From an uncultured Chitinophagales bacterium (lineage in GTDB: Bacteria; Bacteroidota; Bacteroidia; Chitinophagales; JAHDHT01), in contig CALHDG010000005.1 in NCBI GenBank assembly GCA_938023075.1, positions 1 through 47,732 of the forward strand: DNA of 47,732 nucleotides, read 5' to 3'. How positions within the stretch are numbered: position 1 is the first letter of the stretch; each line of letters begins with the position of its first letter. Shown here in pieces: positions 20,006-24,970 of this stretch. The position numbers and the translations under genes were made by a program. The notes beneath the pieces are model-generated. The model ran no database searches, was not told the DNA's origin, and saw only the letters and a list, made by a program, of their open reading frames with translations.

Positions 20006-21310
20006 ATGATGATGAAGATATTTCAACTACTGGCATTATGGTGTTGTATAGCACCTTATACTATAGCTCAAATTACTCCAGCTGAAAAACAAAGTAAGCC
20101 TATTTTATTACTAAATGGGGTAGCGCACATTGGTAATGGAACCGTTATTGAAAACAGCGTAATTGTATTTGACAATGGTAAAATTACCATGGTTGGCGAT
20201 GCGACCACCACCAAAGTTGAAAAAGAAGGCTACCAAGTATATGAGTTAAATGGTGCTCACGTATATCCGGGCTTAATTGCCCCCAATACCAACTTGGGTT
20301 TAATTGAAGTAGAAGCCGTTAGGGCTACCAACGATACACGGGAAGTAGGCTCTTTTAATCCCAACGTACGGTCAATTATTGCTTACAATGCCGATTCGCA
20401 AGTAACCCCAACCGTTAGAAGCAATGGCGTTTTAATTGCTCAAGTGGTTCCTTCTGGAGGGCGTATTATGGGTACTTCTTCGGTAGTGCAGTTAGATGCC
20501 TGGAACTATGAAGATGCTATTGTTAAAGAAGATGACGGCGTTTGGATGAACTGGCCCTCGCGCTGGCGATACAAAGGTTTTTGGGAAGGCGGTGGCGTTG
20601 ACGAAAATAAAAAATATGAGGAAAGCATAACGGCACTGGAACAATTTATGACCGAAGCACAAGCCTATTGTAAAGGTGGCACGCCTAAAATAACCAACTT
20701 AAAATTTAAAGCCATGTGTGCTTGCTTTGATAAAACCGTGAACACCTATATTAATGCCAATCAGGTAAAAGATGTGATTCGAATTATCGATTTTGCAGAA
20801 CAATTTAACTTACAATTGGTATTAGTTGGTGGCAGAGATGCTCACATGATTAGTGATGTGTTAGCGGATAAAAACATTCCGGTTATTTTAAGACCCGTTC
20901 ATAATTTACCGGCTAAAGCAGACGACCCGATTGATTTGCCGTTTACCACGCCGGCAGTTTTTCAAAAAGCAGGTGTTGTATTCGCTTTCTCTACGCCTAA
21001 TTTCTCTGGCGATACGCGAAACCTTCCTTTCCATGCCGGCACTGCCGTTGCGAATGGCTTAGATGCCGAAGCTGCCATACAAGCCATGACTTTAAACCCA
21101 GCTAAAATTTTAGGCATTGACAACAAAGTAGGTTCTATAGAAAAAGGCAAAGCCGCCACTTTATTTGTTTCGAAAGGTGATATTTTAGAAATCACCAGCC
21201 ACCAAGTTGACTATGCTTTTATTGATGGCAGAGCGATTGACTTAAGTAACAAACAGGTGGAGTTGTATGAGAAGTTTATGAAGAAGTATGAGTTGAGTAG
21301 CGAGAAATAG
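20006..21310 (+). CDS. Exported amidohydrolase-like protein lacking the HxH metal motif
   Basis: 434-residue exported protein (signal peptide KIFQLLALWCCIAPYTIAQ) with the imidazolonepropionase/dihydroorotase-like amidohydrolase layout: N-terminal beta-sandwich (LLNGVAHIGNGTVIENSVIV) then a TIM barrel, and the C-terminal MTLNPAKILGIDNKVGSIEKGKAATLFV segment (split here at residues about 362-393). The usual first-strand HxH reads PNTNL instead (H85-VYPGLIAP-N94-T-N96), so two metal ligands are Asn. The segment AVRATNDTREVGSFNPNVRS is, from memory, conserved in many Bacteroidota relatives, so this may be a distinct non-classical subfamily and not a degenerate copy. Substrate unknown; location periplasmic. 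Three ATG codons in a row mark the start; the first is used here. It ends 13 nt before the next gene and may be co-transcribed with it. Confidence 0.8.
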   Translation: MMMKIFQLLALWCCIAPYTIAQITPAEKQSKPILLLNGVAHIGNGTVIENSVIVFDNGKITMVGDATTTKVEKEGYQVYELNGAHVYPGLIAPNTNLGLIEVEAVRATNDTREVGSFNPNVRSIIAYNADSQVTPTVRSNGVLIAQVVPSGGRIMGTSSVVQLDAWNYEDAIVKEDDGVWMNWPSRWRYKGFWEGGGVDENKKYEESITALEQFMTEAQAYCKGGTPKITNLKFKAMCACFDKTVNTYINANQVKDVIRIIDFAEQFNLQLVLVGGRDAHMISDVLADKNIPVILRPVHNLPAKADDPIDLPFTTPAVFQKAGVVFAFSTPNFSGDTRNLPFHAGTAVANGLDAEAAIQAMTLNPAKILGIDNKVGSIEKGKAATLFVSKGDILEITSHQVDYAFIDGRAIDLSNKQVELYEKFMKKYELSSEK

Positions 21311-21323
21311 TTGTTCCATAAAT

Positions 21324-21872
21324 ATGACATTAGATTTAGACACACTAAGCAAAGGAATAATGGGATTAACAGAAGAGTTTGGCAGCTTTTTGCTTCAAGC
21401 CTGCACAATTTGCTTAGACAGTCAAAATCATCAAAGCGGAGTGCAAATGAACTTATTAACAATTCAAGGCAATAAAGTATTATCTTTGAATTGGAGTTCT
21501 GTTGTAAATAATCAAATTAAGAGGAATTGGAGTGATATGCAAGAGGCTACGGAATATGCTGCAACCGGAGTTGCGATAAAATTAGCCGAAATTGAATCAA
21601 TAAATAATTGTGTTGAACGATCGAGCAAAGGAACAGGATTTGATTATTGGTTAGGAGAAGAAAACGATGTTGGAATATTTCAACGAAAAGAACGATTAGA
21701 AATATCGGGAATTTTAAATGAAAGCAAAACAAATACTGTAGCTAACCGAGTTAACGCAAAAATTAGACAAACTAATGTCTCGAAAGAAACTGGTTTAAAT
21801 GTTCATATTTGTGTTGTTGAGTTTGGAAACACAGGCTTCCTAAATCAGAGGAAAGTTGACCTAACTGTTTAA
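21324..21872 (+). CDS. Conserved protein of unknown function, first gene of a two-gene module; altered C-terminus
   Basis: 182-residue soluble protein with no signal peptide, starting 13 nt after the amidohydrolase-like gene. I recognise the pattern RSSKGTGFDYWLG (residues about 98-110), followed by ERLEISGILN and V.ICVVEFG, from uncharacterised bacterial proteins, but not a function. It is alpha/beta, with conserved GTGFDYW and a helical N-terminal half (ATEYAATGVAIKLAEIESIN). The native 3' end appears to be displaced. A 38-nt sequence at 21,793-21,830 recurs at 21,867-21,904, 74 nt on and so out of frame. Removing 74 nt restores ...HICVVEFGNPKAEYQII with a TGA overlapping the ATG of the next gene. 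The present protein ends TGFLNQRKVDLTV instead. Whether it is still functional cannot be told. Confidence 0.7.
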   Translation: MTLDLDTLSKGIMGLTEEFGSFLLQACTICLDSQNHQSGVQMNLLTIQGNKVLSLNWSSVVNNQIKRNWSDMQEATEYAATGVAIKLAEIESINNCVERSSKGTGFDYWLGEENDVGIFQRKERLEISGILNESKTNTVANRVNAKIRQTNVSKETGLNVHICVVEFGNTGFLNQRKVDLTV

Positions 21873-21904
21873 ATGTTCATATTTGTGTTGTTGAGTTTGG
21901 AAAC
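21793..21904 (+). repeat. 38-nt direct duplication inside the 3' end of the first module gene
   Basis: Copies at 21,793-21,830 and 21,867-21,904 are identical over 38 nt and separated by 36 nt of unrelated sequence. The 74-nt offset causes the frameshift and premature TAA at 21,870-21,872. Confidence 0.9.
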
Positions 21905-21927
21905 CCTAAGGCAGAATACCAAATTAT

Positions 21928-23031
21928 ATGACCGTAAAGGAATTACATAGAAAGGCAATGAAGTTTAACGATTTGGCAATTATTGCCAAACGAGATGATC
22001 CTTCTATGGTTTCTGAATACTTCAGAAAAGCCTTTGAATTTGAGAAAAAAGCCTTTGTGCAGTTCAATTCAGAATCTAATGTTGAGCCTACTCGAACTGT
22101 TCTATTGAGAAGCTCTGCCAACTTAGCTATGTTAGCTGGGTATACACGCGAAGCCGAAAAATTAATAGCGATTGGTTTAGCGGGTGACCCACCAGATGAA
22201 TTAGCTAATGAATTGCGAGATGTATTGCAACAAGTTAGTTTTTTTAAACGAGTAGAAACTAATGGAAGTGAATTAGATTCTAATGAGATTCAGTTAAGTC
22301 TCTCTGGAAATGAAGTGGGTCGAGGTATAGTTAGAAGTGATGAATTTTTAAACCGCGTAGAAGTTATTGAGAAATTAGCCTTTAGAACAGCTAATAGACT
22401 CAAATATATTCCATTTAAAGAAAAAAGAAGAAAAAAGAAGTCTAATGTAATTGAATTCGAACCTTTCTTATCGGTTTCAAAAAAAGCCAGTTTTGCAGTA
22501 ATCATTCGATTTGGACAATTCAGCAAGCCGTCAAATGGAGAAACTGAAAGCCCGCAATATTTAATTGACGATTTACTCAAGAATATAAAAATTCTTAATG
22601 AAGGAAACATAAATAAACTAAGTAAAACTATTAAGGAGGAGGATTATCGTCGTAATTTTATTGCACTAACAAGGCAGTTGGCTCCAGATGGTGATAGAGT
22701 TAAACTTGTAGGGTTTAGTGTAAAAAGGAACAACCAAATTAATACTGTTCCCCTTACTAAAATAAAAAGTGACTTCAACATTAATGAAGTAATAAATGCA
22801 GAAGATAATAACTCAACAGAATATATAGAACTAATTGGTGTTCTTTCTTATGCAAATTCGAAGAATAACATAATAAGGTTAACTGACAAAGAAAAAAAAG
22901 ACCATACAATCATAGTTCCAAAAGGGTTGTTATCTGATGTTGTTAAACCTTATTTTGAAGAGGAAGTAGTTTTGAGAGGAAAAAAGATTGGTAAAAATAT
23001 TGTGTTAGATGATTTGGAGCTTTATGAATAA
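21928..23031 (+). CDS. Conserved protein of unknown function, second gene of a two-gene module (helical N-terminus, beta-barrel-like C-terminus)
   Basis: 367-residue soluble protein. Residues 3-110 are helical and TPR/MIT-like (MKFNDLAI ... YFRKAFEFEKKAF ... EPTRTVLLRSSANLAM ... YTREAEKLIAIGLAGDPPDELANELRDVL), a signature I associate with uncharacterised proteins of many phyla. The middle has LQLSLSGNEVGRGIVRSDEF (about 117-136), a basic linker (KEKRRKKK) and a domain with FIALTRQLAPDGDRVKLVGF. Residues about 298-365 look like a small OB-like barrel (YIELIGVLSYANSKNNIIRL ... IIVPKGLLSDVVKPYFEEEV), possibly a nucleic-acid or ligand binder (inference). The ATG at 21,928 overlaps the original TGA of the preceding gene (ATGA), the usual sign of translational coupling. 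The two therefore probably act together. Function unknown. Confidence 0.72.
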   Translation: MTVKELHRKAMKFNDLAIIAKRDDPSMVSEYFRKAFEFEKKAFVQFNSESNVEPTRTVLLRSSANLAMLAGYTREAEKLIAIGLAGDPPDELANELRDVLQQVSFFKRVETNGSELDSNEIQLSLSGNEVGRGIVRSDEFLNRVEVIEKLAFRTANRLKYIPFKEKRRKKKSNVIEFEPFLSVSKKASFAVIIRFGQFSKPSNGETESPQYLIDDLLKNIKILNEGNINKLSKTIKEEDYRRNFIALTRQLAPDGDRVKLVGFSVKRNNQINTVPLTKIKSDFNINEVINAEDNNSTEYIELIGVLSYANSKNNIIRLTDKEKKDHTIIVPKGLLSDVVKPYFEEEVVLRGKKIGKNIVLDDLELYE

Positions 23032-23099: not shown

Positions 23100-23945
23100 A
23101 TGAAACTAAGCGATTCTTTCAAATTCAACACCGTACAAGGCTTCAAGTTTGGCTCTTCGCCTTTTGGTAAGCCACTTATGTTTGTTCATATGTTTTTTGT
23201 AGATGGTTTATTGATTGATACCGGGCATTACAATATGCGGAAAGAAATATTAAACACCCTTCAACAGTTAAACGTACAGCAACTATTTTTAACCCACCAT
23301 CATGAAGACCATACAGCGAATGCCGGTTTGTTAAGCCAGCATTTTAACTGTACGGTGTATGCCTCAAAAAAATGTGCGGAGTTGATGAAACATCCTCCTA
23401 AAATTAGTTTTGTTCAACAATTAATTTGGGGGAAGGCACAAGCTTTTATTTCCGTTATTACCAAAGATGATTATATTGAAACACCCAACCACCGTTTCGA
23501 CATTATTGCGGCACCCGGGCACGCTATTGATATGGTTTGTTTGTTAGAAAAAAACAAGGGTTGGTTGTTTTCGGCAGATTTGTGGGTAGCTAATCGAATA
23601 AAACTATTGATGTCGGCGGAAAGTATGGCACAACAAATTGAATCGATCAAACATATTTTACATTACGATTTTGAAGTGTTGTTTTGTTCGCACAATCCGC
23701 AGTTTAGCAATGGAAAAACTTGTTTACAGCAAAAGCTGCAATTTTTGCAAGATTTTTATGGGCAGGCTGCGTACTTATACCAACAAGGCAACTCAGCAAA
23801 AGCCATCTTTAAAAAAATGAACTTGAAAGAAAACAAATGGGTTAAGTTTTTATCTGGAGGAGAGTTGTGCCGGCTAAACATGGTGCTTTCAGTTATACGC
23901 GATGAGGAGCAGAAGCGAAGTAAAAAAAGATCATTAAAGAATTGA
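23100..23945 (+). CDS. MBL-fold metallo-hydrolase
   Basis: 281-residue cytoplasmic protein of the metallo-beta-lactamase fold. The metal motif HxHxDH is present as H66-H-H68-E-D70-H71 in LTHHHEDHTANAGLL. The second His cluster is APGHAIDMVCL (about residues 140-150), the Asp ligand is in LFSADLWVA, and a late His is in VLFCSHNPQF. Members include glyoxalase II-like thioesterases and many hydrolases of unknown substrate; the spacing fits the general single-domain group better than any specific enzyme. The C-terminal about 80 residues (KTCLQQKLQFLQDFYGQAA ... NKWVKFLSGGELCRLNMVLS) form a helical cap seen in some Bacteroidota members. It starts 69 nt after the module gene on the same strand and may share its transcript. 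Confidence 0.82.
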   Translation: MKLSDSFKFNTVQGFKFGSSPFGKPLMFVHMFFVDGLLIDTGHYNMRKEILNTLQQLNVQQLFLTHHHEDHTANAGLLSQHFNCTVYASKKCAELMKHPPKISFVQQLIWGKAQAFISVITKDDYIETPNHRFDIIAAPGHAIDMVCLLEKNKGWLFSADLWVANRIKLLMSAESMAQQIESIKHILHYDFEVLFCSHNPQFSNGKTCLQQKLQFLQDFYGQAAYLYQQGNSAKAIFKKMNLKENKWVKFLSGGELCRLNMVLSVIRDEEQKRSKKRSLKN

Positions 23946-24278: not shown

Positions 24279-24911
24279 CTAAAGTTTGGTACTTAGAAGC
24301 TTTAAAAATTGCAATGCCTCTGGTCCGGTAGACATCAACAAATCTAACACTGATAAATTATATTGAAAGCCATTTTTTTCTTGAAACAACTGATAATATT
24401 GTAGGTGTTTCAATTGCTTGGTATAAGTAATATTGGGTAAGATGGTATGGCGCATATCACAAACATGTTCAGGTAAATTGTTGTTGCTTAAATATTGATC
24501 CGTAAAAGAAATTACTGGTTGCCAATTGAGTTGTGTACATAACCATTCCAACCAAATCATATTCCATGTGAATAAGGAGGTTGGAGGCTTTGCGAAAATA
24601 GCCTTCATCTCGCTTTCATAATATTCAAAATACGCTGCTTTGGCATAAGCCGATTGAATGGCAAACCAATGTTCTTTCAACCAATGTTCAGTAAAATCCA
24701 TTTCAATATCTTTAAGCATACATTTTTGCCGGCTACCACCTTTTAACGGAATAGACAAACGTTGTTGACCATTAGCGCCTGCAATATAGGCACGGTTGGC
24801 ATAACTGGAGCGTTGAAAATTGGCGTACTGTTCTATGCAAAGTTGATCGAATGCGAGGGCGTAGCCAAAAAAAGTGATGGATGGAAGGTAGTGCAGTTCA
24901 ATTAAAAGCAT
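24279..24911 (-). CDS. WbqC-like family protein
   Basis: 210-residue soluble protein resembling the WbqC family (PF08889-like), found in polysaccharide and nucleotide-sugar loci and widespread in Bacteroidota as a single-copy gene of unclear biochemical role. Recognisable features are the opening LLIELHYLPSITFFGYAL, the Gln/Asn-rich NFQRSSYANRAYIAGANGQQ, the strand-turn SIPLKGG, and HWFAIQSAYAKAAYFEYY. The chosen start is the ATG at 24,911; the frame is open to 24,944, but those 11 extra residues precede the typical N-terminus. It is transcribed against its neighbours and bracketed by two family-5 fold-back elements. The 24,912-25,152 gap contains the second of these and the start of the next gene's leader. 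Confidence 0.72.
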   Translation of the reverse strand: MLLIELHYLPSITFFGYALAFDQLCIEQYANFQRSSYANRAYIAGANGQQRLSIPLKGGSRQKCMLKDIEMDFTEHWLKEHWFAIQSAYAKAAYFEYYESEMKAIFAKPPTSLFTWNMIWLEWLCTQLNWQPVISFTDQYLSNNNLPEHVCDMRHTILPNITYTKQLKHLQYYQLFQEKNGFQYNLSVLDLLMSTGPEALQFLKLLSTKL

Positions 24912-24970
24912 TACTTTTACGCTATTGTGATTTTTGTATGACAATATAGTATGATAAATTAATTATTATT

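Follow-up and report, generated by a model that had tools for sequence, protein, structure and literature searches.

A nearly obligate, mobile two-gene cassette with interchangeable C-terminal parts and a possible role in bacterial conflict

In this study, we describe two adjacent genes, A and B, which form a real, nearly obligate, mobile and modular pair. They lie in a 47,732-nucleotide stretch of DNA (referred to as the window), and their two-gene family is absent from all four family libraries searched (Pfam, NCBIfam, PHROGs and PADLOC). Tentatively, and with slightly less than even confidence, we interpret the pair as a compact, horizontally moving cassette of the conflict type, either anti-phage or toxin-antitoxin-like, in which A is predicted to be nuclease-like and the C-terminus of B would steer its action.

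Results

The A-B locus in the window

A check of open reading frames found both genes of the original prediction on the + strand. According to inspection of the translations, they are flanked by an amidohydrolase-like gene ending at 21310 and a metallo-beta-lactamase-fold-like gene starting at 23100. The KGTGFDYWLG core expected in A is present, as are the motifs EPTR.VL.RS..NLA, REAEKLI, SGN.VG.G and IVPKGLLSDVVKPYF expected in B. The ATGA junction was likewise located: when the insertion described below is skipped, the original frame of A ends ...VVEFGNPKAEYQII* in a TGA that overlaps the start of B. The features of the locus are as follows.

21324..21872, + strand: gene A in its present reading, 182 aa, with an intact core and its last residues changed by the insertion
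21552..21554, + strand: E77 of A, in the TE.GA helix, nearly invariant in 63 sequences; candidate PD-(D/E)XK motif I
21627..21656, + strand: KGTGFDYWLG core of A (residues 102-111) with D107, invariant in 63 sequences; candidate motif II
21699..21710, + strand: E126-I-S128-G129 of A, with E, S and G invariant; candidate motif III with serine for the usual lysine
21747..21770, + strand: R142...K146..Q149 helix of A, conserved; candidate motif IV with a migrated basic residue (precedent in PMC1913061)
21793..21830, + strand: first copy of a 38-nt repeat, the original coding sequence LNVHICVVEFGN
21831..21904, no strand assigned: 74-nt insertion, consisting of 36 nt of unrelated single-copy sequence (21831-21866) and the second 38-nt copy (21867-21904)
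21928..21931, + strand: ATGA, in which the B start codon overlaps the TGA that originally ended the A frame
21928..23031, + strand: gene B, 367 aa
21928..22248, + strand: N-terminal TPR-like helical domain of B, about residues 1-107, common to all B proteins
22249..22779, + strand: middle region of B, about residues 108-284, with the SGN.VG.G and ...ASFAV motifs
22780..23028, + strand: C-terminal barrel of B, about residues 285-367, predicted to be OB-like

Window A carries all invariant positions by which the cassette is defined (G.G.DYWLG ... LE[IV]SG ... R...K..Q), and window B, with its TPR-like N-domain, lies directly downstream on the same strand. In Pfam and NCBIfam, neither protein gave a match past the curated cut-offs; in PADLOC and PHROGs, neither reached a meaningful E-value, and none of these four libraries yielded a toxin or antitoxin family for either of them. 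Matches to DruD (0.024), CUB (0.014) and mazG (0.84) were at chance level and were discarded, and 63 members of the A family gave only scattered chance-level matches in Pfam. A match to a characterized housekeeping family, named beforehand as evidence against the prediction, was not found for either protein in the family libraries. The helical domain proposed for B as TPR-like gave weak matches in single-protein Pfam searches and was better recognized when the B family profile was compared with solved structures, where it matched a designed TPR protein with an E-value of 7.7e-6; we therefore refer to the N-domain as TPR-like.

The same genome contains a second A-B pair (G000:C34:84101-84960; L002 and L094) with a short B of 135 aa and a 4-nt overlap, flanked by a miaB-like gene on one side and a sigma-54-type AAA regulator gene on the other. 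Elsewhere in the window, an open reading frame on the - strand (24279-24944) presumably encodes a WbqC-like protein.

Pairing of A and B across genomes

When genome contigs were scanned with a trimmed A alignment, 146 relatives were obtained, from which 80 loci were kept; four more were added from viral contigs. Together with plasmid and same-phylum loci, these yielded 94 A frames, two of which are halves of one broken A gene (L028). B was found downstream within 400 nt in 92 of these 94 frames, representing about a dozen phyla, and in the two frames lacking B, 145 and 159 nt of contig remain after the end of A. The side-by-side occurrence in distant phyla that had been proposed is thus real, and rare adjacency, the other observation that could have spoken against the module, was not seen. 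The exact 4-nt overlap of A and B occurs in 67 of the 92 pairs, being common in the cassette without being strict.

As the scan used A as the query, the pairing was checked by separate searches with A and with the B N-domain in genomes of the phylum to which the window was assigned (Bacteroidota, judged by gene content and the closest relatives). A was present in only 5 of the 296 genomes sampled, showing that the cassette is sparse; the B profile recovered a partner in four of them, and the remaining one (G105) has a very divergent B after its A. The single B-only match among the 296 (G059) is an ordinary TPR protein and was rejected. In plasmid searches, B adjoined A at all four A loci, and one further plasmid B without A lies beside a Tn3 transposase and a recombinase gene. 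No relative was found in phage records with the queries used. Pairwise distances of A and of B are correlated (r = 0.845, with 0.237 as the highest of 500 permutations, and 0.531 for distant pairs only).

The insertion in gene A

The 74-nt segment had been described as a duplication. This holds for 38 nt, which occur twice (21793-21830 and 21867-21904), but not for the intervening 36 nt, which show no likeness to nearby sequence and are single-copy in the genome. A CRISPR-like reading of this repeat-36 nt-repeat arrangement was rejected, as the repeat codes for protein, can be aligned with another A-B locus (L010) and is found nowhere else in the genome. Because the insertion replaces only the last residues of A, the conserved core of A remains open and B is intact. 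The residues changed include the proline that follows the EF motif and hardly varies in the A family. The ATGA-type overlap is now absent in the window, the original one still being legible. The insertion has broken the ancestral coupling between A and B, a coupling that we infer from this overlap.

Architecture of B

The unit shared by all B proteins is the N-domain of about 107 aa, which also occurs nearly alone (105-140 aa). To this domain are joined the OB-like region only (L012, L021 and L041; E-values of 1e-11 to 5e-14), the middle plus OB-like region, which is the window form (from an alignment of 21 representatives), or a VapB/DUF2281 tail (above the Pfam cut-off in L042, with an E-value of 5.6e-7, and weaker in L039). 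In three loci (L051, L057 and L076), B is fused to the Z1 ATPase MzaC, and two of them, scanned with PADLOC, gave E-values of 1e-159 and 7e-138; against the NCBIfam MzaC model the fusion scores 1e-182 and yet stays below the equivalog cut-off. A fusion of the N-domain to a sugar transferase on a Hymenobacter plasmid (L008:4989-5894; PF02397, 2.8e-52) may be an accident.

Long and short forms of B are interleaved in the A tree. The short B proteins of cyanobacteria typically have a C-terminal tail (for example ARRG..FDE.KLQ.L) that is similar to the beginning of the middle region. In L058, a middle region 60% identical to that of L037 is still legible just after the short B. These observations indicate that some short B proteins are truncated long ones. 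Two other two-gene modules (L170:1492-2857 and L171:1474-3145) have different first genes, nucleotidyltransferase-like in L170, and their second proteins may carry a region like the middle region of B (PDC-M63B); the match between the middle plus OB-like region and these proteins was too weak for a link to be claimed.

Genomic surroundings and mobility

The cassettes lie between unrelated genes, most of them housekeeping genes, with carA/carB, miaB, htpG and dnaK among the neighbors named by inspection (the Methylovulum pair is situated between carA and carB), and they also occur on plasmids. The A tree mixes phyla, and some chromosomes have up to five matches, including decayed ones. Some near-identical pairs from different phyla that share their neighborhoods (L017/L027) may be binning artifacts and were therefore left out of the transfers. 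Apart from MORC in three loci, no recurring neighbor or third partner of note was found across distant loci, others being confined to close relatives. Immediately 3' of a short B, L011 (6938-7714) and L059 (6923-7672) have a third gene of 249-258 aa, 59% identical between the two loci; its 258-aa product has no family match in Pfam. In another locus (L098:926-2351), a divergent A and B are abutted upstream by a gene that matches Cas2 (PF09827, above the cut-off) and is VapD-like by inspection.

The prevalence of housekeeping neighbors and the wide range of phyla would be consistent with an accessory of stress response, nucleotide signaling or repair without any conflict role, with A as the binder of a ligand or nucleic acid, B as a scaffold and co-regulation as the reason for the location; the sugar transferase fusion would also fit. 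However, the neighbors are not kept between distant relatives, the distribution is sparse and includes plasmids, and B has been fused to MzaC and to VapB-type parts. We regard this explanation as unlikely.

Equally unlikely, in our estimation, is a plain toxin-antitoxin pair, with A as the toxin, B as the antitoxin, the C-terminal additions of B as replaceable regulatory parts, and persistence mainly by addiction. It would account for two overlapping genes that are self-contained, sparse, mobile and present in several copies, some of them decayed, as well as for the VapB/DUF2281 tail and the VapD-like neighbor. However, the short B is a TPR-like domain with no recognizable DNA-binding part, the toxin-first gene order is less usual, and both the long B with its middle plus OB-like region and the ATPase fusions exceed an antitoxin. 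Moreover, in the window the core of A is intact and its coupling to B has been lost in a lineage that is alive, although the second intact pair could supply B.

Occurrence in defense operons

The fusions to MzaC are situated in operons with MORC and methyltransferase genes. The gene order in L057 is Vsr, cytosine methyltransferase, MzaB (MORC), A, B::MzaC and MzaE (AIPR). L051 and L076 have methyltransferase and MORC genes first, followed by one for a protein with an Mrr-like GGRDI..FQCK segment at its end, and then A and B::MzaC. MORC operons with methyltransferases and Vsr have been described as restriction-like (PMC2292703), and mzaABCDE has been called a validated system (PMC9523054). These fusions are the strongest link to phage defense, a link that is only suggestive as most other cassettes have no defense neighbors. 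Inspection of the larger open reading frames of the window revealed no MzaB (MORC), MzaC (Z1), MzaD or MzaE. In L024 (7682-11794), a 1370-aa protein encoded directly 3' of A-B has a phosphoribosyltransferase-like start and a C-terminal match to a nucleoside-phosphorylase-type effector (9e-22).

The prediction of a paired, mobile module for conflict, stress or signaling has held with respect to pairing and mobility, and its conflict part has gained independent support from the MzaC and VapB-tail fusions. As to location, three relatives lie in Mza-type operons, but most cassettes lie among housekeeping genes outside recognizable defense islands.

Possible nature of A

Five positions (D107, E126, S128, G129 and F167) never vary among the 63 A sequences, and four others (E77, R142, K146 and Q149) hardly do. 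Their order fits motifs I-IV of PD-(D/E)XK proteins, except that motif III lacks its lysine and the helix that follows carries a basic residue. Families in which motif III has a serine and motif IV a basic residue have been described before (DUF506, DUF790 and DUF1626; PMC1913061). In profile comparisons, the motifs of A were in register with those of NOV_C, and 3 of 80 column shuffles reached the score, which is not significant with three families tried; the corresponding values for DUF4420 and Mrr were 15 and 25 of 80. This comparison has little power, as known PD-(D/E)XK families do not recognize each other well by it either. Crude secondary-structure propensities were ambiguous for strand 3, which is not clearly a strand. 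Given the profile result and this strand, A is called a predicted nuclease here.

Cleavage need not be the task of A, given that Vsr or Mrr-like nucleases are also encoded in the Mza-type operons. That A stands in for MzaD as sole nuclease became less likely in view of the Mrr-like segment in L051 and L076 and the Vsr gene in L057. Alternatively, A might be a non-enzymatic specificity or adaptor subunit, such as a reader of DNA or modified bases, that B links to effectors, for example the Z1 ATPase and nuclease partners. Both the nucleases already present in these operons and the serine in place of the catalytic lysine of motif III would agree with such a role. Nevertheless, the near-perfect conservation of D107, E126, R142 and K146 between phyla is more in keeping with an active site, and we consider the adaptor role the least probable of the explanations weighed here.

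Discussion

A role in conflict is the best-supported reading of the A-B cassette, although our confidence in it falls somewhat below an even chance. In the model that we favor, A and B would be made from one coupled mRNA, as suggested by their pairing and overlap, and the TPR-like N-domain of B may bind A. To judge from its motifs, A would be the subunit that is active or faces nucleic acid, and it would most likely be a diverged nuclease of the PD-(D/E)XK type, with a putative active site made up of D107, E126 and the basic residue moved to the next helix. The interchangeable C-terminal part of B, the modularity of which was observed directly, might set where or when A acts, being an ATPase engine in Mza-type operons, an antitoxin-type tail elsewhere, and the middle plus OB-like region in the window.

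A more specific form of this model, which is possible but less probable, is that A-B represents an undescribed plug-in defense module of about a dozen phyla, in which a nuclease-like subunit and its dedicated TPR-like adaptor act alone or are grafted onto the Z1 ATPase/MORC, antitoxin tails, or the middle plus OB-like region. The near-constant pairing and the grafting onto a defense ATPase recommend A-B as a candidate when new anti-phage or toxin-antitoxin systems are sought. The hypothesis is directly testable, since B proteins with five or more different C-terminal forms share one A partner.

With respect to known systems, A-B resembles type II toxin-antitoxin systems (VapBC, VapD) in being compact, overlapping and mobile and in having the VapB/DUF2281 tail on B at two loci, one above the Pfam cut-off; however, A and B as wholes match no toxin or antitoxin family, and B is TPR-like and often long. 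The C-terminal region of one B variant (L013) matches PDC-M63B, a PADLOC candidate defense protein (1.6e-5), whereas window B has no direct match, and the link is transitive and weak. Although A has no significant sequence or profile match to the PD-(D/E)XK families with a migrated basic residue (DUF506, DUF790 and DUF1626; PMC1913061), it shares with them the order E / D / E-x-S / R..K..Q. As for the MzaABCDE and MORC-Z1 systems (PMC9523054, PMC2292703), most A-B pairs stand by themselves, no gene of these systems is close to the pair in the window, and MzaD, the PD-(D/E)XK/DUF4420-type core protein of those systems, was not seen in the loci with A-B fusions. Nevertheless, three A-B relatives reside inside such operons, beside MzaB and a cytosine methyltransferase and, depending on the locus, Vsr and MzaE, and A-B could show how MORC/Z1 restriction-like systems gain new subunits.
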